DNA from: Strongyloides papillosus
Taxonomy: Eukaryota; Nematoda; Chromadorea; Rhabditida; Strongyloididae
Direction of reading: 5' to 3'
Length of the DNA: 64,000 nucleotides
Assembly (NCBI GenBank): GCA_005656395.1
Contig: SRSI01000046.1
Coordinates: 1,302,001-1,366,000 of the forward strand
The position numbers were made by a program, and so were the translations under genes. Of this stretch, positions 61 to 45,000 are shown piece by piece (within the stretch, counting starts at the first letter, position 1; each line of letters starts with the position of its first letter). The notes beneath the pieces are model-generated. The model saw only the letters and a program-made list of their open reading frames with translations. It did no database searches and had not been told where the DNA came from.

Positions 61-1479
61 ATGTTTGTAAAAAGTAGTTTTATATTTATTTTTTGTACAT
101 TTTTTTATTGTTGTAAACTTCAATCAACATACTTAGAGTACTCTAACATTTGTATATTACTATTGACCATAATTCATTTGAAAATCAGGAAATACAATGG
201 AAGATTTGATAGTATTTTCGGTATTCTTTTATTAATAATGATTCCTGAGGAGTTACCTCAAATATTTTGTAACAAAGTAGCACCAACTGTTGAGACAATT
301 AATCAATGTATGGATATTAGTTGTTTATGTTATTTTTTTGGTACTAATGATACCTATACACAAATTACAGATCATTGTTTATTATCTAATGGAAAAAATC
401 TAACAAAATCCATTAGAAAAGAATTAAGAATGTTAACGACAGAGGAGAGGGAACGTTATCATAAAGCTATAAAACAGCTAAAAGATAATGGTGATTATAC
501 AAATTTTGCTATCATTCATTCAAAAATCGCTGATAACGGTTCTGCACATGGAGGACCTGCTTTTTTACCATGGCACAGAGAATTTCTTAAAAGATACGAG
601 ATTGCATTGAAACAAATTGATCCCTACATCACCGTCCCATATTGGGATTCAACATTAGAATGTGAACTCCCATCACCCTCTGATTCAATAATATTCACTG
701 ATTTATTTTTTGGTACAACAGACGATGATGGTAATGTTGTAACGGGACCATTTAAAAATTTTACTACAATTAATGGTGATCCATATATTGTAAGGGAAAT
801 AGGAAAAATTGGATATGTTTTCAAGGACTCGGAAATTGATTTTATTTTAAATCAAACATCAATTGATGAAGCTTTAATATTTCTAGATCGTACTGGAGAA
901 TGTCCTGTTAAAACTGATAATAGAAGCCTTGAATTCGTCCATGCCAATATACATAATTTTATAGGCGGAGACATGTTTCTAACGGCAACGGCTTCAAATG
1001 ATCCGATCTTCTATCTTCACCACGCTTTCGTGGATTTCATATGGCAGATGTCTCGGGAAAAAAATCAAAACAGGGTTGAGAGAGAAAAAATATATCCCAA
1101 AGATATGGAAGCGTGTTTTCCATCTTCTCATTTTGGGACAAGTTTAATGCGACCTTTTGAAGAAATGAGAAATATTGATGGTTTTAGTAATAAATACACT
1201 GATAATATGTATGAATATGCTCCAAGACCTACATGTTCACCTGAAAATACATCTTGTGGAAGTGAATTTTTATTTTGTAAAATTTCAAATGGAGTCGGGA
1301 AATGTACAGCTAAGGTAAAATCTTCAGGAAATTGTACAGGTTTAGAAGATATTCCAGAAGTCTGTTATATGGGTAAATGTGTCAATGGAACATGTTTATC
1401 TGATTTCCCTAGTACAATCAAAAAACAGGAACTAAATGCTACATTAAATTCAGTTACATCTAGTAGTGTGATAAAATAA
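61..1479 (+). CDS. tyrosinase-family copper oxidase, secreted
   Basis: Tyrosinases oxidise phenols at a paired copper centre; nematode members are usually linked to cuticle or eggshell tanning. The predicted 472-residue protein has a hydrophobic N-terminus, then a nematode-type block with CMDISCLC. The CuA region has the expected histidines (IIH, AHGGPAFLPWHREF, about residues 158-182). The CuB region has VHANIHNF and FYLHHAFVDFIW (about 298-330). The C-terminus is Cys-rich (about 393-450) with several N-glycosylation sequons, then Ser/Thr-rich. The open frame is unbroken, but residues 20-75 hold two extra hydrophobic stretches unusual before a tyrosinase domain. A short in-frame intron there (for example GTACTC at 138 to TCAG at about 189) or a later start is possible. 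Family call is firm; physiological substrate unknown. Confidence 0.88.
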   Translation: MFVKSSFIFIFCTFFYCCKLQSTYLEYSNICILLLTIIHLKIRKYNGRFDSIFGILLLIMIPEELPQIFCNKVAPTVETINQCMDISCLCYFFGTNDTYTQITDHCLLSNGKNLTKSIRKELRMLTTEERERYHKAIKQLKDNGDYTNFAIIHSKIADNGSAHGGPAFLPWHREFLKRYEIALKQIDPYITVPYWDSTLECELPSPSDSIIFTDLFFGTTDDDGNVVTGPFKNFTTINGDPYIVREIGKIGYVFKDSEIDFILNQTSIDEALIFLDRTGECPVKTDNRSLEFVHANIHNFIGGDMFLTATASNDPIFYLHHAFVDFIWQMSREKNQNRVEREKIYPKDMEACFPSSHFGTSLMRPFEEMRNIDGFSNKYTDNMYEYAPRPTCSPENTSCGSEFLFCKISNGVGKCTAKVKSSGNCTGLEDIPEVCYMGKCVNGTCLSDFPSTIKKQELNATLNSVTSSSVIK

Positions 1480-3631: not shown

Positions 3632-6600
3632 TTAATAACTTTCTTGAGATAAAGAATATTTTTCATGTTGTGGTGGATTATATTCTCTGACATATTTATA
3701 TCCATTATTATCAGAATCCATAAACTTTCCTAAGAGTGTAAAAATTTGATTATTCAATAATTCTATGCCATGTATGCGAGAAATCATTTTTGACAGATCT
3801 ATCCCACTGGAAGAGGGGTTTTTAGAATCAGTTCTATGGATTTTCTTTAAATGATAAGAGAAATCTAAAACGTTAAATCTATTAACTTGTTCAAGAATTG
3901 CAATAAGAACACATGCTCCATAATGTGGACCATCTCCCATGATTTTTTCAAAATACTGGGATCTTAACCTTTCATCACTCTTACTATCCTTCTCATTAAT
4001 ATTATTGTCATACTCAGAGGATGGTAAACAAATAATAAACTGGACAGCACTCCAGATTCTATGAAATTCTGAACATTCATCAATAGACATCACACTATTT
4101 AATGGAAAGTTTCCGGTAAATAACGTATCATTAATTATAATATCTCTTGTATACTGTAAAAAGTATTCCAAAATACCGAAACCTAGTGAAAGTTTCTCTT
4201 TTGTATATAATTCTGCATCATTAGCTGCTTCTATCTGTTCTTTGGTTCCATAAAGATTAACTATCTTGGAAAAATGCAATGATTCATATTCTATCTCTAA
4301 TTGTCGATATCTCTTTTCACGTTCATTTTTATCAATACATCCAGTAGTTGGGACATTAAATAGAAAGGTGCTTCCATGGTCCAAATCAAAAACCTCTTCC
4401 TGTTGTAAGGCATTTTCTAATAATTGGATAAATATTATAACATTACCAAATATACGAAGTTGTTGTCCAAATCCTGTATAAAGATCTTTATAATTACGAA
4501 CATCTTTTAAATGATGAAGATAATACTCCATAACAGCTGATGATCCATACGTACTTAAAGGTAATTTGATAACCTTTGGCATAAGATGCATAATATGTTC
4601 AATATTTTTTCTTAATTTTTCACTTAATAGTGAATGGATTAATGCTGTAAATTCTTTTAAGATAACAGCAATGCCTTGATATCCTAGGAGGCGGACGATA
4701 GCTCTTAGGTGTGGATAACCAATGTAACCAGAATGCATTTTTGCAATATTCTCAGCAGCAGCACCTAATGATCTACTACCAAATTCATATTGAAAATTAC
4801 ATGGTATTGCTTTGATGCGCTCTGGGACCCTTTTAAAAAGAATGCTCCCTCTAACAAACCTACACGTTGATGAATTGTAGCAATAATTTGGAAATATATT
4901 ATTGTTAAGTTCAAAAAAGATATGAAGTCCGATTCTACCAATGTTACTTGAAACACTACTGTTAGCTTCTATGAACAAATCTTCATAATCACCTAGAGAA
5001 AAAAAAAGGTGTTTTTTTAATAAATCATAACAAAGTCTATTGACATCAAGTAAATATTCTAATTTTACTATTCCTACAAGAGATTCCGATTCAAATTTTG
5101 AAATTGCCACATCCAATGAATTTAATATTGCAATATTTATTCTTTGTGAAATAAGTTTATTAAGATCGATACTTCTTCCCAATAATTGAACATGCCTTTG
5201 TTTTAATAACAATTCAAATCTTAATGCTTCTGGTGATCTCAAGAATATCCCAAGACTTTCACATTTGCTTTTAAATTGTTTATCTAAAAGGTAAGATGAA
5301 GCAAGTTGTTTATAGTGAGTAAAAACACCTTCTGACAATTTGAAAATAAATTGATCAAAACACAAATTGAACTCAGCTTCCACCTCATCATACAAAAATT
5401 GTGTTTTGAATTTTGTGAGTGCAAAATGTGCAGCATCGTTATAAAGATCCAATTGATATAAAATATATTGCATTAGATGAGATTGATCAAAATTTGATAA
5501 GATGTGATTCGTCAAAATCCATGGAAAACTCATCTCTATTGGAAATTGAATTCTCCTACCCATTGTCATTTCTAAGTAGAATTCTCTAAACCATAATTGA
5601 CTTAAATCACAAGATTCAAATAAATATCTATCAATATTTATAAGGTAAGACCAGTAAAAAGATTTCTCCAGAAATGTATTTATTTTTTCAATATATTTAT
5701 TATCTATATCCTTTTTCAATCCTCTTTTTCCATAACCACAACGTTCAGAAGTTAAATTTTCTAACATTCCTCTTACCATGTAAAGTTGTGTCAAACTTGG
5801 AGGAACACTTTTTCTAATAGAAGGTAAATTTTCATTACAATCTACGCCATCAGAAGAGGTTGATTTCTTTTTACTTTTAGTTTTAGATACCACTGATGAT
5901 TGATCATTAACTTGATCATATTGTCTAAGTGAATTATCAATACAACTTTCAACTATTCCCATTAATATTCCTTTAACCATGTCTTTTTTCCCTTTCATAG
6001 ACTTCATAAGAAGATCTTTTACCGTTATTTGAACAAAATCTTGCAATTCTCCATATAAATTACGATTAATTAATGATGTAAAATGTCTGATTTCATCAAC
6101 TAATAATCTTTGTAACCCTTTTATCATTCCAATAATTGCTACAAGTGCACTTTTTTCATCATAATTATAATTATATCTTGTTGCTCTTTCATATTCCTCG
6201 GCATCGCCGGGGCATTCTTTATTTTTTTCTTCATTTGTTGGATTCAATAATTTCCACGAGACTGTCTCCAGAACATCGCATGTCCATGAACAAAGCAGTT
6301 GTAAACCGGATATTACTAAATTTGTAATTTCTTTACTCTTCTCGTCTTCATTAACAATATTTTCACTACCCAAATTTATGTCAATTTTTATTTTCATTAT
6401 ATTTGCAATATACTCATCATGTCGTTGGCGGATAACTTTTGCCTTATCAACTATGTCAACCTGACATTTGGAATTTTCCTTATTTGAGAGTGACCATTTA
6501 GATGAATCATAGTTATGACATTTCTTAACAAATGAAAAAGGTTCCATCTGCATATCACCGAAAAGTGGTACGACAGTTAATGTTTTAAAGATTTTATCAA

Positions 6601-7525
6601 TTGACGTTATAGATATTCGTTTTTTGGAATCTAACTTGTATATAATCACATCTTGAGAGTCAATCAAAAATAGTGAAAATGCTATAACTTTCACAAGCAT
6701 ATACTTTTCATCAGGTGTAACATACATTTGATTTTCAAAATGATGAACACAAACATTTATTATATCACACAACAATTCTTCATAACCGTTAATTCCCTGT
6801 AACTCGAGCTTTAAATCTTCTTTTATTTTATTTTGCATAGCTAGAAACATCGAAAGTTCCTGCATCTGTTGAAGACTATCTGAAGTTGACATCAATTGTA
6901 AAAATTGTATTGACCTTTTAAAGGTTGAGAAATCATTTTTTATGCTTGCTTTCATATTTTTTAACTCATCTAGAACAACAAACATGTCTAATAATCGTCC
7001 CAATAGAATAAGATAGTCTTCAGAGATGAAATCTTTTATATGACCGTTAATACATAATCTTTTAACTTCTTCCGAAAAGTGTGATATTGATTTTTTGGTA
7101 AAATTTAAAAAATTATATAGCTTCTCAACTTCTGGTCCCAGAACATCTATGATCTTTTTATTAATATCGTTCCTATTTTCTTGATCATTTGACTTTGGCA
7201 TCGGTATTGATCTGGTCATACAACGCCATGTATAAAGAACCCCAGCATACTTGAAACCATCACTTAATAGCTTCTTTAATTCACTGTGTCTAGTAGCTTC
7301 TTCAATAAATTTTGAATATCCCGTTATATAAGCATTTTTATCCTCAAAATTGGTATCAAAATTTGTAAAACAATGCATTGGCAGAGATGCTCCCTCAATT
7401 AAAGGGGCGTCTGATTTAATTATTAAATCATTTAATATCTAAAAATATAGTACAAAATAGAAAATTTATAAACTTACATCAACATTAGATATTGCTTCTT
7501 CTAATGTAATATTCTCTTGCTCCAT
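3632..7525 (-). CDS. gex-2: CYFIP/Sra-1, WAVE regulatory complex subunit
   Basis: Two exons: 7478-7525 and 3632-7438, split by a 39-bp intron (GTAAGT...TTTTTAG). Joined they encode about 1284 residues, close to the usual 1250 of CYFIP proteins. The N-terminus MEQENITLEEAISNVD followed by NFDTNFEDKNAYITG and YTWRCMTRSIP is diagnostic for CYFIP/Sra-1/PIR121. The rest covers the long FragX_IP-type helical region. CYFIP pairs with NAP1 in the WAVE complex, binds Rac-GTP and controls Arp2/3-driven actin assembly; in C. elegans the gene (gex-2) is needed for ventral enclosure. The first exon encodes only 16 residues, but its sequence and phase fit the family start, so I extend the gene to 7525. It is intact and is the best conserved gene in the first 10 kb. 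Confidence 0.96.
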
Positions 7526-13300: not shown

Positions 13301-16235
13301 ATGATAATAACCGATAAGGCTGGTCCCGTTGCTGCTGCGCTTTTACTTCTACTTGCACGTGGTGCTACACGTAAGTTTTAGCTTTCGTTTTATCTTATTA
13401 AGTGATAATTTTTTAGCATTGCCATATAATGCAAGAGGAGTTGCTGGCGCTGGTGCTCTTGTTGGAGGAAACTTCAATCATGATGGAAATTCATTCCACG
13501 GCTCATTTGGAGGTATTGCTGGTGCAGCTGGTGGTGTTCATTTCCAAGGAGGACAACCAAATGAACGCCCAGTTCCTTCACACGTTATGCCACCAATGAA
13601 TGGTGACCCAGTTGAGATGGAAGGATTCTACCATGTCCCTGCATCTAATGAACTTCCAAAAGCAAATGATGTCGAAGAACAAAAGGCACAATCACCAGAG
13701 CTTTACCCAGTTCCTGCACACGATATGCCTCGTGTCGCTGAAGAAACCAAAGTTCCATCCAATGAAATGTACTATGGTTACTCTACTGAAGCTCCAACAA
13801 CTGAGATGTACTACACTTCTACTGAGGCTCCTTCAACTGAGGTACACTACGATTCTACCACTGAAGCTCCAACAACAAGAGTATACTATGCCTCAAGTGA
13901 ATCTCCATCAACTGAGGGATATTTCGCACCTAGTGAATCTGTAATGGGATACAGTACTGAAGAAGCCAAGGCTCCAGCAACTGAAGTTAACTTTGCTGCC
14001 CCTGAGATGTCATACGTTCCTCAAGACTCTGTTACTGCTGATATGTATGCCACTGGACCAATGGAGAACTATCGTCGTCGTGGTGAGGCTCAAAAGGTTC
14101 AAAGACCACAACCATCCGGAATGGATTTCACCTCTGAGGCAAGAGAAGCCCCATTAGATGGAATGTACTACACCTCTTCTGAAGCTCCTTCAACTGAAAT
14201 GTACTACACTTCTACTGAAGCTCCATCAACCGAAATGGATGTTACTTCTACCTGGGCTCCAACAACAACTAAAGCTTACTATGCTCCATACGAAGCTCCA
14301 TCAAGCAAAGTTTACTTCGCTCCATCTGAGACTCCATCAACCGAAATGTACTACACTTCTACTGAAGCTCCATCAACCGAAATAGATGTTGCTTCTACCG
14401 AGGCTCCAACAACCAAAGCTTACTATGCTCCATACGAAGAACCATCAAGCAAGGTATACTTCGCTCCATCAGAAGTCCCATCAACTGAGGCTCCAACGAC
14501 CAAAGTTTACTATGTTCCATCTGAGGCTCCATCAACTGAAATGTACTACACTTCTACTGAAGCTCCATCAACTGAGGCTTCAACCACTAAAGTTTACTTT
14601 GTTCCATCTGAAGCTCCATCAACCGAAGTCCCATCAACTGAGGCTCCAACAACCAAAGCATATTATGCTCCATACGAAGCTCCATCAAGCAAGGTATACT
14701 TTGCTCCATCTGAGGCTCCATCAACTGAAATGTACTACACTTCTACTGAAGCTCAAACAACCGAGATGGACGTTACTTCTACTGAGGCTACAACTACTAA
14801 TGCTTACTATGCTCCATACGAAGCCCCATCAAGCAAGGTTTACTTTGTTCCATCAGAAGCTCCATCAACCGAAGTCCCATCAACTGAAGCTCCAACAACC
14901 GAAGCATACTATGCTCCATCTGAGACCCCATCAACTGAAATGTACTACACTTCAACTGAAGTTCCATCAACTGAGGCTCCAACAACCAAGGTATACTATG
15001 CTCCATCTGAGACCCCATCAAGTGAGATGTACTACACTTCTACCGAAGCTCCATCAACTGAAATGTACCACACCTCTGTTGCAGCTGATGAACCAACTAC
15101 CTTACCACCTGTTGATGAAACTACTACTTTTACTACCGAAGCTCCAGTTGTTCCTGAATGTGTTGTTTTTGGAACTTGTGGACAAAGAAGAGGCAGCAAT
15201 GGTGGAAGAAGACAACCAATGAAGGGTGGACGCAAACCAATGGGTCGCGGAATGAACAAAAATTCAGGTAGATTGGATAACTCAGACAGACAAGGACGTC
15301 GTTTCGGACAAGATGTTGTTTCAAATGACATGGAGATGGTTATAATTAAATGCAGAGATGTTAATGGAAACGCCGTTGATTGTGGAAATGTCAAAGTCCG
15401 TTATGATGTTGAAGGTCGCGACTCAGAAAACTGGGGAAGAAGAAGAGTTAGTCAATCTGGTGGATACCGCTTCAAAAGAGACGATGCTCAAGCAGCAGAT
15501 GCCGCCAACACCTCATCAACTGCTAGTGGATCCCTCGTTGATGAAACAACTACCGAAGCTCCAGTTACAACAACCACAACCACCGAAGCTCCAGCTACAA
15601 CAACAACCACCGCAGCAGAAGTAAATGAGACCAGTTCTGAAGAACCAAAGGCTACTGAAGGATCTGAAATGACTAGTGAAGGTGCCGTTGAAGATGCTAC
15701 TAACACCACTACAACTACCACAACAACTACTGTTTCACCAAGCGAAAGGGAAAGTGGAAACACAACTGAAACTACTACTGAAACTATGGAAAACACAGAA
15801 TTAGAAAACGGAGAAACAGCCGCCAACGCTACTGAATCTATGCCAACTGAAACCAAAGAATGCTTGAACGCTACAGCTGCAGCTGCTTTATGCGAACAAA
15901 AGGAAACCTCCTCTAACTCTACATGCCAAGTCCAATCACACTGCTACTCTGACTCCGACTGTAATGGCGGAAAATGTATTGGAATGTTTACTGGAACATG
16001 CAACTGCAATGCCTGTCACGACTTCAAACCATGTCTTAGTGATGAACAATGTGGTGGATTAAGAGGAGCTTGTGATATGAGAGTCAAACGCTGCAACTGC
16101 CAATCAGCCTTCAGTGCCTTAGGTTATAAAACTTATGCCAGTGTCTTAACAAAATTCTGCTTCAGTGAATTTTGTAATGCTACATCCGACACTTGCCACG
16201 GATTACCATGTGTATTTGGAAGATGTTTCTGCTAG
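13301..16235 (+). CDS. secreted mucin-like repeat protein with Cys-rich C-terminus
   Basis: Two exons, 13301-13370 and 13417-16235, joined across a 46-bp intron (GTAAGT...TTTTTAG), giving about 962 residues. The first exon encodes a hydrophobic leader (VAAALLLLLARGAT), so the product is probably secreted. Order: Gly/Ala-rich N-terminus; a long tandem-repeat zone (about residues 145-580) built on the units STEAPTTKVYYAPSEAP and STEMYYTSTEAP; an Arg/Gly-rich basic patch with a CVVFGTCGQRRG motif; Thr-rich runs (TTTTTTT); and a Cys-rich domain of about 110 residues with roughly 20 cysteines (for example DSDCNGGKCIGMFTGTC, DEQCGGLRGACDM). Ser/Thr density suggests O-glycosylation. Codon use is higher in GC than neighbours, fitting strong expression, as does the TATA box. 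Family not recognised; cuticle, gut-lining or gland secretion are possible roles. Confidence 0.85.
13786..15080 (+). repeat. coding tandem repeats (Ser-Thr-Glu-Ala-Pro-Thr units)
   Basis: About 1.3 kb of degenerate in-frame repeats inside the secreted protein. Units of roughly 24-75 bp alternate between a MYYTSTEAPSTE type and a KAYYAPYEAPSSKVYFAPSE type, combined into longer higher-order blocks. Because unit lengths are multiples of three, long open frames also appear in other frames (such as 14386-15222); these are by-products. The array is likely to vary in length between strains. Confidence 0.85.
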
Positions 16236-17061: not shown

Positions 17062-18284
17062 ATGCAAGCCACTCTAAAACCTAATATGGTAGGTAAAAAA
17101 TTTGAAAACTACCCTGTGGATTACGTAAGTTTTTTTTTTAAATTTATCATTAATTTTATAACGACATTTTATAGCCTAACATCTTAACACCAAAAAGTGA
17201 ATCTACCTCAGCTACAGTCAGTGATATAGAGATAATAAATAAAAATATAAGACCACCAAATGTCACAATAGAATATCTTATATCTCTTCTTGTAGAAAAA
17301 AAGAAACTTATGCTATTTCCACAATTATTTTCTAATGTTGATCGTCTCCTGGACGAGGAGATATCCCGTGTACGTATGGCTTTATTTCAATGTGATTTTT
17401 CTAGTATTGAATCAGAGTTACCAAAACCTGAAGGTGATGTAACATTGCTTTTTGAAAAAGTTTATGTACCAGTTAAAGAGTTCCCTGGTTGTAATTTTGT
17501 TGGTCGGATTCTTGGTCCCCGTGGGATGACAACCAAACAATTGGAACAAGAAACTGGATGTAAAATTATGGTTAGAGGAAAAGGTTCTGTTAGAGATAAG
17601 AAAAAAGAAGAGGCCCATTATGGTAAACCAAATTGGGAACATTTAGATGAAGATTTACATGTATTAATTCAATGTGAGGATACCCCAAACCGGGCAAAAA
17701 TTAAAATTAAGCATGCCATTAAACAGGTGGAGAAACTTATTTTACCATTACCTGAAGGATCTGATGAATTGAAGAGGAAACAATTAGTGGAACTTTCTAT
17801 TATCAATGGAACATACCGTCCACCACCTAGACGTAAAAATTTGATATCACCAACTAATATTCTTCCATCATTTAATCCTTTACCTTCAATGGTTAAAAAT
17901 GATTATAGGGGAATGTCTTTACCTTTGTATACTAGCTCTCCAATTCCTGTATTTCCACCAATTGTAGTACCACCACAGACTCCTAGTTTAAAAGAAGAAC
18001 AAAGAAGTCCCTCACCTCCAAGTCTTAATACACAATTTGATTATAGCTTATCACAATTAGATAATCTTTTATTACAAACAGGACTATCAGGCTTCAGTAA
18101 TTCTTATTTGAATGGTACTTTCTTACCAAGTCCTAGTGTTCTCAGTACCCCTACATTCAAGGAATCCTTTCCCTATTTTTACGATAATCTAAAAAAGCCA
18201 CAAATTTTTAGAAAAAGTACTACAAAGTTGTCAGACAACGCATCTGAATCTAGTGGTACTACTAGTATTAGAAGTTTTTCTTAA
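17062..18284 (+). CDS. STAR-family KH RNA-binding protein, GLD-1/ASD-2/Quaking type
   Basis: Two exons, 17062-17124 and 17175-18284, split by a 50-bp intron; about 390 residues. The order is that of STAR proteins. First comes a QUA1 dimerisation helix pair (about residues 53-95, with [17 protein letters not shown]). Next is the maxi-KH domain (about 115-195) carrying [18 protein letters not shown] and [10 protein letters not shown]. Then the QUA2 segment ends in [18 protein letters not shown] Pro/Ser-rich tail follows. These proteins bind UACUAAY-like sites in mRNAs; GLD-1 represses translation in the C. elegans germline and ASD-2 controls muscle splicing. The QUA1 wording ([14 protein letters not shown]) looks closer to GLD-1 as I recall it, but paralogue assignment needs a tree. 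The first exon supplies the ATG and the second runs straight into QUA1. Confidence 0.93.
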
Positions 18285-31318: not shown

Positions 31319-34300
31319 ATGTCTTATAGAAGGAAAAGTTTATATGCTTTTGGTAATGGTGATAATGGACAATTTGGTGTTAAGATACGTGATGATACTG
31401 AATGTTTTATTGAACCTAATCGTGTTATAGGTGTCCCTGTTGATGAACACGGTGTTAAGGTTATCTCTATTGCTTGTGGTATAGATCATACACTTTTTTT
31501 ATGTCATGATGGTACTGTCTGGAGTGTTGGTGCTAATCATTATGCTCAATTAGGAAGGGAATGTGGTGAAGAAGGTTAGAGAGTTTTTTTAAGTACCATA
31601 AACAACTTTTTTTAGGTTCATTTACAATATATCCGGTTAATTTAGGAGTTGGTGCTAAGATAATTTCAATATCAGTGGGGTTTTACCATAATTTGGCTGT
31701 CGTAGAGGATGGTAGACTTCTTGGATGGGGCGATAATTCAAGAGGACAGATTTTATCCAATTTTCCCAATGAAAAAATAGTTTTACCAAGAAAATTATGT
31801 AGTTTTACGGAGGTTGTTCAATCTTCCTGTGGAAAGTCTTCCTCTATGGCTTTATCTGAAGCTGGAACTGTGTGGATATGGGGAGAGTATATGTCTAAAG
31901 TGTTAACAGAACCCATAATAGTTGATTTAATTGGATTTTTACCTATCGTACAAATTGCTGCCGGTGATACATATTACATTGCTCTAACTGCTAGTGGTGG
32001 TGTTTATTCATGGGGTAGTAATGAATTTGGACAATTAGGACATAAAGATTACAGAAGTAGAACCTTACCAGAAAGAATTAAACACTTAGATTCAATGAAT
32101 ATTGTCTATGTTGCTTGTGGTTCCAGCCATACATTGGCTTTATCAAAAGATGGTAAGGTTTTTGCATTTGGTAATGATGCCTCAGGACAATGTGGATTAG
32201 GAAGGAAAAAGGAACGTGAGGATGTACCAGTTTCAATACCTGAATTTTTGGGATCACATGTTTCAGCTATCGCCTGTGGAAGGCGACATTCTCTTGCTTT
32301 AGTCAATGGACAGGTATGGTCATTTGGAACCAATAACAATGGTCAATTAGGTTTAAATAGTTTCAATACACAAATAACACCAAGAAGATTAAAAAATTAC
32401 AATAATATTGCATCAATATTTGCTGGAGTTGATCAAAGTTTTATGATTGAAGATCCACTGTGTCAAAGTACCCTCGTTGATACAGCGACGAATTGTCTAA
32501 AAGTCCCTAGATTTTTAAATATTGTTACTGTTAGGGAGTTGATTAGAAAAAACGATAATATTGAATTGATTGGTGTCCTTGAAAATATTTTTACATCCAT
32601 ATCAGCAATGAATGGTAGTTTTCTTTTTAGTGATGATAGAAAATTTAATTGTTCTGCTAAGAACCATGGGATTAATTTAGATGAGGCTATGGAAAGCTTT
32701 GATTTAATAACAAAACTTCGAGATGCTAATCATAGTGTTGTTGATGCCATTGTCAGTAGTTTATGTCAAATAGAATTTTGGGAGTCTGAGAGGATTTATA
32801 GTTTTGATGGTCATATACCAGCTGAAAGTTTAAGGTTATTTTTATATCTTCCATGGTTTCATGTTATGGTCGATAAAGATCATGAACTTTTTGCTACAGT
32901 TACATTACCATTTTTGAGGGCTCTTTTTCAATATACAGAGGAACATGAATCAAAAGAGATTTTAATGTCATGGTGGTCCCAAGTTCAGGCACGACACTTT
33001 AGGAGAATTATCCATGTTATTCTTAGTGCAATAGGATTTTGTTTAGTTTGCAAAGATGATAAAAAATATGTCCACAGAATCCCACAAATGTTGGGTGTTT
33101 TAGATATTCTAAGACAAGTTAATGAAAAAACCTCGAAAGTTCCGATAGAAAAGTTTTACATTGATAATTTAGCTGATTATGTTGATATAAAAAGAGATTA
33201 TTTTAATTTCTTAACTGGTTCCGGTCAACCAGTCAATGGACATTTCTTCTGGACGCAATTTCCCTTCGTTATGAATGCCCTTGCTAAATCTGAGTTACTT
33301 CAGTTGGAGTCCGAGTTTTCAAGGATTCAAGCAGCAAATGATGCAGGACCCACAATACATTATATTTTTAATCCACTTGTCGGAACATTGCCTGTTTTCA
33401 TAGAAGATGATAGATTTTTGGAGATGAAAATTCGAAGAACACATATATTAGAAGATGCTCTTAATTTTATTGCCTCAAAAACTAGAGAACAATTAGTTAA
33501 AGGACTTCGTGTTACATTTGAGGGTGAGCCAGGAGAAGATGCGGGTGGTCTTAAGAAGGAATTTTTCATCTTAGTATTTAAAGAACTTTTCCAACCATAT
33601 TTTGGAATGTTCAAAGAGGATAGTGAAAGTCACTTAGTATGGTTTTCAGGGTACCCAACTGACTTAGGTAATTTTAAACTTTGTGGAATTCTTTGTGCAT
33701 TATCAATATACAATCAAGTTTTGGTTGATTTTCCTTTTCCATTAGCATTATACAAATTAATTCTTGGTAAAGAAGTTAACTTAGATGATCTTTTACAATT
33801 ACATCCCTCAGAGGGAAGAGCAATGCAATCAATGTTGGAGTATGAAGGAGATGATTTTGAAGAAGTATTTAATGTATTTTTTTTAATTAATTTTGAAGTA
33901 TTCGATGAGGTAATTGAAGTTGAATTAAAACCCGATGGAGCCAGGACACCAGTGACACAATTAAATAAAAACGAATTTGTTAATTTGTATGTTAAAAGAA
34001 AATTAACTATTGGTGGACATGATGAAATGATAAGGAAACAATTTGAGAAATTTTTAGAGGGTTTTAAAACAGTAATGTCATTAAATTTATTACCCTTTTT
34101 CCAACCAAAAGAATTACAAGAATTAGTTGTTGGTAATGAATGTTATGATTGGCAGGTCTTCAAAGATACAACAGTTTATAAAGATGTTTTTCATCCCAAT
34201 CACCCAACAATTAAAGCGTTTTGGGAGGCATTTTTTGAATTTAATTTGGAACAAAGAAAGAAATTCCTCCAATTTCTTATGGGATCAACAAGGATACCAA

Positions 34301-34476
34301 TCCAGGGTATAGGATCAATTAAAATGACCATCCAACCAATTCCTGAAAATTTACTACCTGTAGCTCATACGTGTTTTAACATTTTAGATTTACCGAAAAT
34401 TGAGGATACTCAAGAGATGTACAAAAGATTATTAATAAGTATGGAACATGGACAAGAAGGTTTTAATTTAGTTTAA
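31319..34476 (+). CDS. HERC-type E3 ubiquitin ligase (RCC1 repeats plus HECT), HERC3/4-like
   Basis: Two exons, 31319-31574 and 31616-34476, with a 41-bp intron; about 1038 residues, the size of the small HERC3/4/6 proteins. The N-terminal third is an RCC1 beta-propeller with repeated GNGDNGQFG, VGANHYAQLG, WGDNSRGQI, WGSNEFGQLG, FGNDASGQCG and FGTNNNGQLG blades. A helical middle region follows. The C-terminal HECT domain (about residues 700-1038) begins near LRVTFEGEPGEDAGGLKKEF and ends with LLPVAHTCFNILDLP, containing the cysteine that carries ubiquitin as a thioester. The final FNLV end is usual for HECT proteins. It is intact. Substrates unknown; exact HERC3 versus HERC4 orthology not resolved. 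Confidence 0.93.
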
Positions 34477-38518: not shown

Positions 38519-41500
38519 CTACGATTGATTGACAAACTGATTATTTGTTTGAACTTCAGTTAACGTTACAGCATAATAATTATGATCTTCTTGAGTATTT
38601 TCTATATCAATAACAAAGGTATCCTCATTACAATAATGTTTTAACATATCATCATCCATTTTAACGGTAACACCTTTGAGGCATTGTTTATAGAGTGCTG
38701 TCACTTTATCACTATCAATACCAAATTTCTCACCTATTGCTCTTACCAAACCAACTAATGATGGTGGAACAATATGTAATGGTGTATATATTGCTTCATC
38801 ACGTTTCCGAACATATATCATAACTGAAAAAAATTTTATTGTTAATAATAACAAAAAAAATATAATTTGATAATGATATATAAATTGTTATTATTTTATC
38901 AATAGAATACATTCTTTGTATTGTATAAAATTGAAATTAAAATAACTGTTTTATTTTTCCAACACAAATATGAAATATTATACTATTATGTTTGACGAAG
39001 AGGAGACAAACATATAGATAATAATGTGTATATTTGTCAAAGGAAAGTATTTATCAAAAAAAAATTGTAATAAAATTAAAAGATGTAGGTATACGGTAGG
39101 TATGTGATAGAGAAAAGAAAGAAAAATAAAATAAAAATATTATATAGATAAAGATGTAAACATACCTCTTTCAGCTGTTCGCGGCCTTTTTGCCATTGGT
39201 TCCATATCTGAGAGACCATCATAGTTAAGAGAGCTACTATCCAGATATGAGGCATCAAAGTCATCTGACGCCACAAAGAGTGCTGCGGGTTTTTCTAAAT
39301 CACTCATATGATAGAATTCACTCCGATCACATGGTTCATGATATTCACCGTCAGATTTTTTTCTTCCTAGAAAACCAGCAAAAAAAATGGTAAGATTTTG
39401 TTTAAGAAAAATTTTTTTAAAGATTTTTTTTATAAATATAATAGTTTTAACGGTTTTTTTTTAAATAACGATATAACATAAATGTTAATTGATAGTGTAA
39501 ATATACATAAAATATTAGTAAGTAGTATAAGAAGACGTTTAATAAACAAACCTTGCATTCTCCGTTTTTCATCTCTTCTAGTTTCATGTAACATTTTTCT
39601 ATTAGCTCCCTAAATAAAACATATAATGTTAGTAATAATTATTATTAATAATAATAAATAAAAAATAAAGTGAAATGGAAGGGGTATGAATAAAAAGTGA
39701 AAATGATAAGACAAGACAAGGTTTTTTTCTATATTTAACCTTTAAAATTTGATTTGGACAGGATATAGTAATTTTTGAAGAGGTCAAACAAGCATTATTC
39801 TTCTCCGTTACGTAATATAACATAATATTACAGATACAGGTTGCAAAAAAGATAGGTTATATGTTGTTTTACTTAAACATGTTCAAATGCTATTGATGGG
39901 GAATCTAGTTACATAATTGAAAACTTGATAAAAGCAAATATTAGACTAGTTTAGTTGACATGAAGGTGTAAAAAGGGACAGGAAATGGAAAAAATTAACC
40001 AGTTCAAAGGTTGGATTGTACAAAAAAGCTGGGTTAATTGAATTAATATACTCTCTATATTTTATTTCTTTATCATATTTTATTATTAAATTATATTTTA
40101 TTGATGTTACTTTTATTTCTCATTTATTGATTCAATTTTTCACTTCATTTTATAATTATAATGAATAAAACTTTATAATATATGAATTACATTATTATTT
40201 ATAATAATTTTTGGACATAAGTTAGTATGTAGTGATAAAGACAAGACATTTTCTAAACCGTTTATATTTTGAAAGTATTTAATAAAAATTTTAAACTCTT
40301 AACTACCTGTAATTTTGCGCTTTTGCGCTCTTTTATCTTCATCACGAAGTTTTCTTTCAGCTCCCTAAATACATATATTTATATAATACTTATATAAATT
40401 TAAATAGTATATAAAGATTGTCAAAATACATTATATATATTTACTCCTTTTTGAAATAGATGGAAAAATATGATATTATAATTGTCTCTTTTTAAATATG
40501 ACAAACCAAAATAAGAAAAATTGGTGTGCAAAAAGGCAAGGGAAAAAAAGAAAAAAAAACTAAGGATATTAATTTAAAACTTACCTTATCACAAAAAACT
40601 TTTATCTGACAAAAACCTCTATGAAAAGGTATTTTACCGTCATCACCCTCATCATATGTATCAATTTGTATATGAAGTGGTAGACCTTTGACACCTTTTT
40701 GATTTGAAAAATCCGTTGAAAGGCATTGTACAGCAATACTAATCTTAAATAATAACATTTTAATAAGTTTAAATTTTTATATTATAATTTTAAATCATAC
40801 TTTAACAGAAGTCTCTGATGGATTCCAATAAAATTGAACAGCATTATGGGCAACCTCCTCTATTTGTCCAATGATGCCAGATGAATTTTTTGAATCAACT
40901 TCCATTATTCTTTGTTTAGAAGAATGTTGACGTCCATGCCAAAATTGCCATGTTTTAATTTCTTCATCATATGTTTTATCTTCTCTAAAGACAACCATCA
41001 ATATACTCTATAAAAGATTAGAAGTTTATATTATATACGTAATTTATAATAAAATTAGAACAACATGAAAAAAAAAGTTTTTTGACAAAGAAATATATAG
41101 GATAATAGATATGTAATAAATAAAAAAAAGATAAATTGACTTACTTTGACTGTTGAACTTTTTAATGGTTTAGATGGATCATGGAGATAGTCTAAAGAGA
41201 TAGTATAAAATTGTCCCTTATTAACATAAGTCATTCTATCGTCCTCTTTTCTAATTGATGTACTAATAGGTGCCTCTAAAACATATTGAAAACCTAAGGT
41301 ATTATGTAATTTAGGAATATTAACAGGACTTTCACGATGTGACATCAATCGATCTGAAGTTCTATCAATTCCATTTTGTTGATGGCAATCTGATGTTTGT
41401 ACATTATTTTGGATGACATGTTGTATCTGTGGTTGTGATGTTATATAAAAATCATCCTTTGGACATAATAATGATAAATCTGTACCAATACCAGAATCAA

Positions 41501-42059
41501 CAGGTGATGGTAATTCTTGTTTAAATAAACGATCTTGTTGATTGAGATCCTGAGTCTGATGATGATATTGTATTGTTGATGTTCTTGGATAGACGACATT
41601 TGTTGTGTATTGATCAACCATTGTTGGTGCTGTAACTCTTTGCCAGTCCTGTTGTCCACCACCACCAAGACCACCACCAACAACTGCTGCAGCATTAGAT
41701 GGAAATACGGCTGCTGGATAATAAATAGTATTATGACCTTGATTTGGATTACCACCCTGAAGGACTGTATTTTGTTGTTGTCCAGTGGCAAGACCAGCTA
41801 TAGCATAATCAGTATATACACGAGAATAATTTGGCATTTGATAATAATGTTCAATTGGTTGCATTTTTGATAGATCAGAAAGATTTTGATTAGATAGTTG
41901 TGTTAACTCAAATCCATCACCCTTACCAGACATCAGATCAAGATGCCTGGAACCTGGTGGTGCTGTTTTGATAACAGATGATGGTTCTAGTTGAAATTGT
42001 GAAGACATTGTTGATGTTGGTGCAAGTACCGTAGATGATTCGTAAGCACCAAACTTCAT
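38519..42059 (-). CDS. grh-1: Grainyhead/CP2 transcription factor
   Basis: Exons in transcription order: 41145-42059, 40801-41007, 40585-40743, then either 40307-40364 or 39552-39609, then 39166-39366 and 38519-38823. About 614 residues with either 58-nt exon. The N-terminal 220 residues are Gln/Pro/Gly-rich (activation-type). The CP2 DNA-binding domain includes [39 protein letters not shown] and [14 protein letters not shown]. The C-terminal dimerisation domain includes [20 protein letters not shown] and [12 protein letters not shown]. Grainyhead factors control epidermal and cuticle gene expression and bind AACCGGTT-like sites. The start is set at the first in-frame ATG (42059); the frame is open 10 codons further to a TTG, so an upstream exon is possible. 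Two mutually incompatible copies of one exon are present. Confidence 0.94.
39552..39609 (-). other. alternative exon 4b of grainyhead
   Basis: 58 nt flanked by TTTTATTTAG and GTTTGT. It encodes [19 protein letters not shown] plus one base, the same length and phase as exon 4a at 40307-40364. It shares the GAxRK start and overall charge. Splicing 4a directly to 4b would give an in-frame TAA within three codons, so only one can be used per message. Confidence 0.78.
40307..40364 (-). other. canonical exon 4a of grainyhead
   Basis: 58 nt flanked by a TATTTAG acceptor and a GTAGTT donor. It encodes [19 protein letters not shown] plus one base, the form that matches Grainyhead proteins of other animals (FCDKGAERK-x-RDE). 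It is the first of the pair in transcription order. Confidence 0.85.
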
Positions 42060-45000
42060 TATCCTTATTGTTGGCCTAATGATTGCCAAGTAGATTTCTT
42101 CTTTTTTTAAAAAAAAAAGAGAATCAGCAGACAGTCAAGAGAATATAATAGATAAATAAATATATAAATATAATAGTATTTCGTAGAAGTCAAGAAAAAA
42201 TTGATATTAAATTATGTATATAGATTTATAATATGAATTTTTTATTGAATGCTGCAATTAATAGAATAATAATGATATTATATAAAAGATAATTATACTT
42301 GATAAAAATAACTTTTTCATTAAACATTTTTTAATTTTGTTTTAACATCGATTTTGTATTGTATATGGTGATTGGCATATAATATTGTTAATATATTTGT
42401 AGGACCATGATATATTAATTGATTATAGAAAGAATTTTAATTAAAAAACGATGAAATAATAATATGGATAGATGATGAAATATTTATATTGATGAAGCAT
42501 GATAGAAGAATAATTATAGATAGTGATAAGGCATTATTAGAATTTTAGAAAAAATATATATATAATAATAAATATGTATAATAATAGTAGTAAAAATAGA
42601 AAGATAGATCAATCTAAGTATGGCAAGGACAGGTAATGATAATAACAATAATAAAAAATATAAAGAAAAGGATAGTTAAAGGTCAAATGGAGAAGGTTCA
42701 TGTATCATGAAGAGTGGGGAGGCAAAACAGGCTTATAGAAACTACTACAATTACTAGATGATCCGGTCCTTTTGGTGCCGAAGGAGAGAACCCTGTAGAC
42801 GGTTGGTGGTAGTAGAAAAGAGACTAAACTCGAAAAACCAGTAGAGTAAGTGTATGTTCTTCTTCTCCTTCAGTTGTCATACTATATTATTTGTGCGAAA
42901 TTTTATATATATTAGAAGAGAGAGCGGTTTTGATCATTCCTCTAGTTTTATATTTTATATTTAAAGGTGTGTATTTTGTGCGCAAAGATATATTATATAT
43001 AATATATATATAATAATATTTAGATGTGGTATGTATAGATATGTATTTATTTCTGCGCACACATACACACAAATATATTGGGATGTTTGAAGAAAGAAGA
43101 AAAAGAGGAGAGTAAATTTTCTTCAAAAATCCTTCATAACACTCTGTATATGAAAAATTTATTTGTATGTACGTGTATATGTGTATGTATGTATGATATG
43201 TAGTATTATTGTAAAAATTTGTAGATAGAAAATGCTTATATAAAAGTTTTGCGAAAATATATTATATAATTTTATTATATTTTTATTATCAAGGAGCGAT
43301 GGTTTGGCAGCTGGACACAATATATAGAAGAAAGGTGAAGAATTAAAAACTACGACGCAGGAGCAAATCAACGCATCAGAAGACCGGTTTTCATTGGGCA
43401 GAACACAGATGAAGGGTGGGCACACACGAAGGAGCGATAAAAAGGTGGTCACGATTTTGAGAGAAGACAATCAGACAAACGTGTCTATAAGTAAAAGGGC
43501 TTCCATTAAATAAAAATTTTTATTTTATTATTACTTATGGTCTTTGGGAGATCGGGGGAGATGGATGAGTGGGAGGAGTTAATGATTGTATAAAAAAACA
43601 CTCTTACTATTTTCAGGAGGACAAATTACATACTGATGACAGTTCATATCTAACTTCTTTTATAACAATATGTGATATATAATAACTAAATACTATTATA
43701 TAATATAAATTGTTTTTATATCAATGGAATAGTGAAAAAAGAATTTATTTTTTTTAAATTTATAAAATATAGATATGGTACTTTTCTTAATAGTCCATAA
43801 ATACCATATTATATTTTGAGGAAAGAATAAAAAAAATAAAAATTATTTAAGATGATGATGTATTATATATTTTTTTAATATTGTTGTAGAATATTTTAAT
43901 ATATAAGAAGATTAAGATGATAAAAATTATGAAAATAAGTATCTTAGAAACAGGTGATTTTAAAATTCGGTCGGTGAATGTGATTTATGATGAGAAGAGG
44001 AGATAGATAGAGTATAATTTGTAGTATCTTTGATGATCATTGATAAAATTTAAAAGTTGCAATTAATTTCGCTTTATGTTTTTATTTTTCATGATAATTG
44101 AAGTGTTTGATAATAAAGTTTATAAAAGGAGGTGGGGGAAATAAAATAATTGTTATTAGAAGGGCCTAAGGGTATAATTTGTATATAAAAGAAAATATCT
44201 TAAAATCAAAGATATTTAAGATTATTTTAATAGAAAATTTTATAACAAAATAAAGGTATGTGTATGATAGAGAATTTACCATCACAAATAAATAAGATGT
44301 TTTTGATGTTATGAAAAATTTACATCTGATTATACATAGAAAAATTTGAAGTCACATGTAGGAAAAATTATATATTTTAAGTTATCTATAATATTGTTAC
44401 TATTTAATATAAAATAAACTTTGTTATTTTGATATAATTATCATTTATTGTAATTCTTTTTATAAAAATAAATTTGAAATGACGACATAAATTATGTATA
44501 TTATATATAATACAATATAATAAAAAGAATTATCTATTTTCAAAAAGGTTAATTAAAATACTTTTAGATAATTAATATTAAACAACTATCTTAACATGAA
44601 ATATGCCCCTTTTTCAATATTATTATCATTATTTAACTCAATTAAATATCATGTCATAATAAAAGATTTTAATACATATTTGTTGTAATAAAAGAATTTA
44701 TATTTTAAAATTGATAATAAAGTTAATAAAATGATCAATTAAAAGAAAGTATAAATTTTGTTTTAACAATTAAAATCATGGTAAAGAATCAATGAAGAGA
44801 TAGTTATCATTAAAAATAATGTATAATATGATGTAAATTATACAATACAATTTTTTGAAGATATATAATAAAATATATATATAATATTTTCCAATAAACA
44901 AAATTGAATTGGTATCTTTTAAAAAAAAGACATTTATTGGAATTATAATAAATAATTTGATGAAAAATAAAAACAACCAGAAGTGATAGGTTATGAATGA

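Follow-up and report, generated by a model that had tools for sequence, protein, structure and literature searches.

Exon anatomy and reading frame of the grainyhead gene

We analyzed a 64,000-nucleotide stretch of the 58.2-Mb Strongyloides papillosus genome (bases 1302001-1366000 of contig C12; hereafter the window, within which positions are numbered). The window encodes a grainyhead gene (grh) on the minus strand (42059-38519) that contains two homologous 58-nt exons, here called 4a and 4b. Sequence comparison and structural models indicate that these exons are likely an ancient, mutually exclusive pair encoding two recognition helices, the choice of which would alter DNA binding. Isoforms carrying the helix of 4a or of 4b are referred to as A and B.

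Exon 1 (41145-42059) was identified as an open reading frame (ORF) with an assumed start codon at 42059. The frame is open upstream of this codon (42060-42134, minus strand), without an ATG, and it partly matches 21 additional N-terminal residues of P0001, a protein from a 2397-nt contig; thus, translation may begin at a codon further upstream. The CP2 DNA-binding domain begins in exon 2 (40801-41007) and extends into exon 3 (40585-40743), both delimited by PF04516 matches and splice sites; exon 3 ends with FCDK, in phase 0. Exon 4a (40307-40364; 58 nt, GAERKLRDEDKRAQKRKIT) encodes the canonical recognition helix and is used in P0001. Exon 4b (39552-39609; 58 nt, GANRKMLHETRRDEKRRMQ) encodes the alternative helix, the peptide of which is conserved in nematodes. 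The intron between them (39610-40306) is 697 nt long and has no clear regulatory motif. Exon 5 (39166-39366; GRKKSDGEYHE...) is read in the same frame from 4a or 4b, and exon 6 (38519-38823) encodes the C-terminal dimerization domain GRHL1_C (PF25416) and the stop codon. All of these exons are on the minus strand, and the product is 614 aa long with either 4a or 4b.

The gene is a member of the Grainyhead family, as CP2 matches occur in three exons (PF04516, best E 1.3e-18) and the C-terminal domain in exon 6 is of the GRH type (GRHL1_C, E 1.3e-30), not the SAM domain found in LSF. Within the genome, matches to PF04516 and PF25416 are confined to this gene (profile search, best candidates scored), and an 86-base query containing 4b has a single match (best candidates scored). 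It is the only grainyhead gene found among the candidates scored in the genome, and separate paralogous genes with one helix each were therefore rejected for this species. P0001, for which only PF25416 and PF04516 are listed as domains, is 97.9% identical to the 4a product over all 614 residues. This likeness would support the exon joins, as a 636-codon ORF on a 2397-nt contig is expected of a cDNA.

The initial annotation described two 58-nt segments of equal length and phase, with acceptor and donor sites, that both follow FCDK. The coordinates and splice sites hold. ATTTAG precedes both exons and the donors are GTAGTT (4a) and GTTTGT (4b); both exons follow FCDK in phase 0, and at their ends a single leftover base completes the Gly codon of GRKK. 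The two are thus adjacent homologous exons, identical at 38/58 bases. In the window there are 243 AG-58-GT intervals (135 on the plus and 108 on the minus strand), 72 of them open. Scored with BLOSUM62 against the 4a peptide, 4b reaches 42 (94 for 4a itself) and no other such interval exceeds 8. The best score among 3000 first-order Markov sequences modelled on the stretch from 4a to exon 5 is also 8. The likeness of 4b to 4a is far above chance.

Splicing of 3-4a-5-6 and of 3-4b-5-6 gives in each case an open frame of 614 codons and a stop. Inclusion of both exons (3-4a-4b-5) yields G-S-stop, with TAA as the third codon from the join, and omission of both (3-5) shifts the frame to a TGA at 39306-39304, which is 61-63 nt into exon 5 and 138 nt before its end. 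Joint inclusion and joint skipping both break the frame, as had been predicted, and this is the behavior expected of a mutually exclusive pair. Together with the comparative conservation described below, the frame logic supports the proposal that the gene is built for choosing one exon, on a scale that appears larger than was originally suggested.

In structural models, exon 4 forms the helix that follows the final strand of the DNA-binding domain, and alignment to the sequences of 5MPF and 5MR7 places it at the same position. Base reading by the GRHL helix is described in the available portion of PMC13105062. Taken together, these data predict that exon 4 encodes the base-reading helix of a GRHL-type domain. 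The exon had been placed near arginines that touch DNA; the region was correct, and the alignment, models and available part of PMC13105062 indicate that the exon is not merely near but encodes the arginine-bearing helix. Exon 4b keeps the first arginine (R427 of GRHL1) and has Leu in place of the second (R430), which 4a has. His replaces Asp next to the second arginine position. We take R427 and R430 to be the two residues that set GRHL1 specificity; this numbering would fit a construct beginning at residue 248. Fold matches of the grh DNA-binding domain are p53-like, and the accessible text of PMC7471608 uses the same description, whereas that of PMC13105062 describes a winged helix.

The vertebrate GRHL1/GRHL2 domain (PDB 5MPF, 5MPH, 5MPI, 5MR7) has the same helix as 4a (GAERKLRDEDKR in 4a vs. 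GAERKIRDEERK), whereas 4b has no counterpart in these four matched sequences. A human GRHL2 variant, c.1258-1G>A (p.Gly420), is reported in the part of PMC7471608 available, and codon 420 begins at c.1258. Thus, human GRHL2 probably has an intron at the same place as grh, and Gly420 would be the Gly of GAERK. In the sister family TFCP2/LSF (8Y7V), the helix (GADRKQKIDREKMEKR) likewise lacks Arg at the second arginine position and has EKR in common with 4b. However, this resemblance is slight (the 8Y7V match scores 80.6 bits with 4a and 80.9 with 4b), and the gene in the window has the GRH C-terminal domain PF25416.

Distribution of the two helices among nematodes

Protein searches returned 177 different proteins (the best 120 of 1356 matches, all 6, and the best 120 of 128). 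The searches required shared 5-residue words, were limited in length and listed the best matches, with one representative per 90% cluster; the counts that follow apply to the proteins so listed. Sixty-eight were assigned to nematodes, by name or, where unnamed, by rank and likeness. Classified by motif, 133 of the 177 have helix A only, 34 B only, 9 both and 1 neither; for the nematode proteins the numbers are 24, 34, 9 and 1. The other 109 (arthropods where the organism is named, otherwise unassigned) all have A. Among nematode grainyhead proteins, the 4b peptide, GANRKMLHE(N/T/Q)RRDEKRR, is present from Trichinella to Caenorhabditis; 0/109 of the others have it.

As the motif presets approximately positions 2, 3, 5 and 7-9, we rely on a motif-free recount. 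Positions 3, 7 and 8 after FCDK are E, R, D in 142/175 proteins and N, L, H in 30/175. The remainder are three gene models that are intron-like at this place and two proteins without FCDK; no intermediates between the two states were found. The charged positions show stricter conservation in B than in A.

Bearers of B among the matches listed include Trichinella, Trichuris and Romanomermis; Syphacia and Enterobius; Rhabditophanes, Panagrolaimus, Acrobeloides, Steinernema and Meloidogyne; and Haemonchus, Ancylostoma, Trichostrongylus, Nippostrongylus, Diploscapter, Mesorhabditis, Pristionchus and several Caenorhabditis. The restriction of B to nematodes holds for these matches, none of which is named as a tardigrade, nematomorph or enoplian nematode. 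In the simplest reading of this range, the second exon predates the split between Dorylaimia and the other sampled nematodes. Decay of the second copy in related species, which the initial annotation had named as a refuting outcome, was not seen, as many nematode lineages keep the 4b peptide. Helix A is found in the transcript-like contig of P0001, from a near-identical worm, and helix B in the transcript-like P0049 and P0123, from other nematodes; all three contigs are presumably from RNA.

A tree of 46 of the 177 proteins, built with exon 4 removed, broadly follows species, and the A and B rows are interspersed. Forcing 17 B rows apart from 23 A rows (with 6 rows that have both left free) costs 739 log-likelihood units (p-AU 1.4e-49), and we thus reject B as a separate gene lineage. 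In Acrobeloides nanus, an A and a B model are 95.4% identical, with differences in and just after exon 4 plus a short later insert; from their sequences, they look like the same gene.

Steinernema carpocapsae, S. glaseri and S. hermaphroditum each have one gene model with only A and another with only B, and the A-only and B-only models are 40-44% identical. Compared with the same-type copies of S. carpocapsae and S. glaseri, those of S. hermaphroditum are 79-86% identical. In the best tree, the six Steinernema rows group together, with weak support (65/93). If confirmed, this pattern in Steinernema would mean that the two splice forms were divided between duplicated genes and that they differ in function.

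All 19 Dorylaimia or Dorylaimia-like records listed (Trichinella, Trichuris and Romanomermis; P0011-P0022, P0027, P0028, P0033, P0051, P0053 and P0054, plus P0123) have B only. Dorylaimia may have lost helix A, the ancestral form.

Splicing signals and neighboring genes

A motif search for binding sites of splicing regulators did not identify TGCATG, GCATG, GTGTG or TGTTGTG in the three introns around 4a and 4b. Exact complementary 10-mers with at least 3 G/C, as potential docking and selector pairs, were not found between these introns, and an Rfam scan of the window gave no match at gathering scores. Two copies of ACTAAC, a word resembling STAR-protein and branch-point sites, lie in the 4a-4b intron (40226-40221 and 39633-39628). 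This motif was chosen after looking and occurs 15 times in the whole window vs. 28 expected, and we draw nothing from it. The window also contains an ORF with KH and STAR_dimer domains (Pfam; 17310-18284, plus strand). We take these to be the domains of the STAR family of GLD-1, ASD-2 and Quaking, some members of which presumably regulate splicing.

Other ORFs in the window encode a tyrosinase-domain protein (61-1479, plus strand), a CYFIP-like (FragX_IP) protein of 1248 aa (3632-7378, minus strand) and an RCC1-HECT ubiquitin ligase (31675-34476, plus strand). A 968-codon ORF (13329-16235, plus strand) has no Pfam match at E 0.001 and lies in the most GC-rich stretch of the window (0.445 at 14001-16000).

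A putative choice between recognition helices

We propose that splicing picks either 4a, with the ancestral GAERK-x-R-DE helix common to arthropods and vertebrates, or 4b, with the nematode GANRK-M-L-HE helix, and that the frame trap removes or truncates splicing mistakes. The exon would have been duplicated before Dorylaimia and other nematodes split, and the pair held by selection since. The activation and dimerization parts are common to A and B, and A/A, A/B and B/B dimers may therefore form. With one arginine fewer and other neighboring residues, B probably reads its half-site differently, and would recognize different or relaxed sites while still pairing with A.

Several observations weigh against this proposal. 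The helix is modelled with only moderate confidence (pLDDT 61-74 per block). The B records are mostly gene predictions, and isoforms are hidden because each cluster at 90% identity is shown by one representative. The transcript-like P0001, nearly identical to the S. papillosus product, carries 4a, and no RNA read of this species across a 4b junction was found in the data queried, which include no RNA reads. Binding data for any B form were not found. The introns around 4a and 4b show no clear regulatory sign in the motif and pairing searches. Scored by matches to CAGGTAAGT over 9 positions, the donors of 4a (7/9) and 4b (6/9) do not differ clearly from the other four (5-8); weak donors as a mark of regulation were rejected on the basis of this overlap in range.

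Isoform B may instead lack useful DNA binding and act as a dominant negative that dimerizes with A through the retained C-terminal domain. GRHL1_C is indeed encoded in exon 6, which both forms share, and Leu occupies the position of the second helix arginine in 30/30 B proteins read motif-free. In the solved GRHL1 variant 5MPI, Gln replaces the first arginine, a change that we take to be a cancer mutation that abolishes binding. However, B keeps that first arginine, with charged positions stricter than those of A, and LSF is also without the second (GADRKQK). A DNA-dead protein is unlikely as the sole Grainyhead of the B-only Dorylaimia and Dorylaimia-like records, given an essential gene, and the three Steinernema species keep a B-only gene model. 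As certain lineages apparently depend on B only, and its charged positions are strictly kept, we consider a DNA-dead B unlikely.

Rather improbable is a swap that alters contact with a protein (cofactor, nucleosome or dimer partner) and not the choice of site. Positions 8, 13 and 14 of the helix are fixed as H, D and E in B, and we know of no base contact at these positions. Grainyhead proteins are also reviewed, in the available text of PMC7471608, as shaping the chromatin landscape. Nevertheless, the segment lies at the base-reading helix, and the clearest fixed change affects a putative base-contact arginine.

It is very unlikely that the exons are not exclusive and that some transcripts hold both, via alternative donors or acceptors, to form a longer helix. 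Nine of the 177 listed models do string A and B together, and those of C. brenneri and C. briggsae, which also count against our proposal, join them by a nearly identical 4-aa linker (LQGT and VQGT). A joined form may thus exist in the Elegans group. However, the linkers of the nine models are 1-40 aa long and several resemble translated intron, as expected of a predictor forced to bridge frame-incompatible exons, and direct 4a-4b joining in the window stops at once. The LQGT and VQGT linkers stand apart from this pattern. A decaying, unused 4b, for which its GTTTGT donor might speak (6/9 matches to CAGGTAAGT, when one of the other five has 5 and the rest 7 or 8), has a negligible probability given peptide conservation from Trichinella to Caenorhabditis, gene models in which B is the sole helix, and the presence of B in transcript-like contigs.

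A choice between recognition helices has parallels outside the family. Mutually exclusive exons in the DNA-binding domains of FOXP1 (exon 18/18b) and E12/E47 alter the DNA-reading element, as we propose for grh. These proteins differ in fold and family, and the grh pair is kept across distant nematodes and apparently split in Steinernema. Known grainyhead isoforms differ in N-terminal or inserted segments or are truncated, and a recognition-helix swap was not seen among those we met. Isoform switching in the family (tissue-specific in Drosophila, by start and splice variants in vertebrates) is covered in the available part of PMC7471608. The initial annotation knew of no such pair in grainyhead. 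We likewise found no paper on one among the open papers listed by our searches; however, databases may already hold it without comment, as the available parts of the sources list three splice variants of C. elegans grh-1 (PMC7471608) and name a clone grh-1b (PMC8748497), and the three variants may include the 4a/4b pair. What seems to be new is how deeply the pair is conserved, that it lies at the recognition helix, and that it is apparently split into two genes in Steinernema.

In C. elegans, GRH-1 is described as a moulting regulator (PMC13195034), as necessary for cuticle formation (PMC2873413) and as a promoter of lifespan (PMC8748497), and the available portions of these papers do not separate two helix forms. 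If GRH-1 has both, the results of motif, ChIP and depletion studies may combine those of two factors. The A and B domains of C. elegans GRH-1 could be compared on the DNA AACCGGTT. Tentatively, and with rather less confidence than we have in the pair itself, the two helices could represent two DNA codes: a splice switch as old as the phylum would give one regulator of moulting and epidermis two classes of sites, with Dorylaimia having kept only the new helix and Steinernema having split the helices into two genes. As a deeply conserved natural experiment, the pair can also be used to ask how specificity is set by a p53-like helix.
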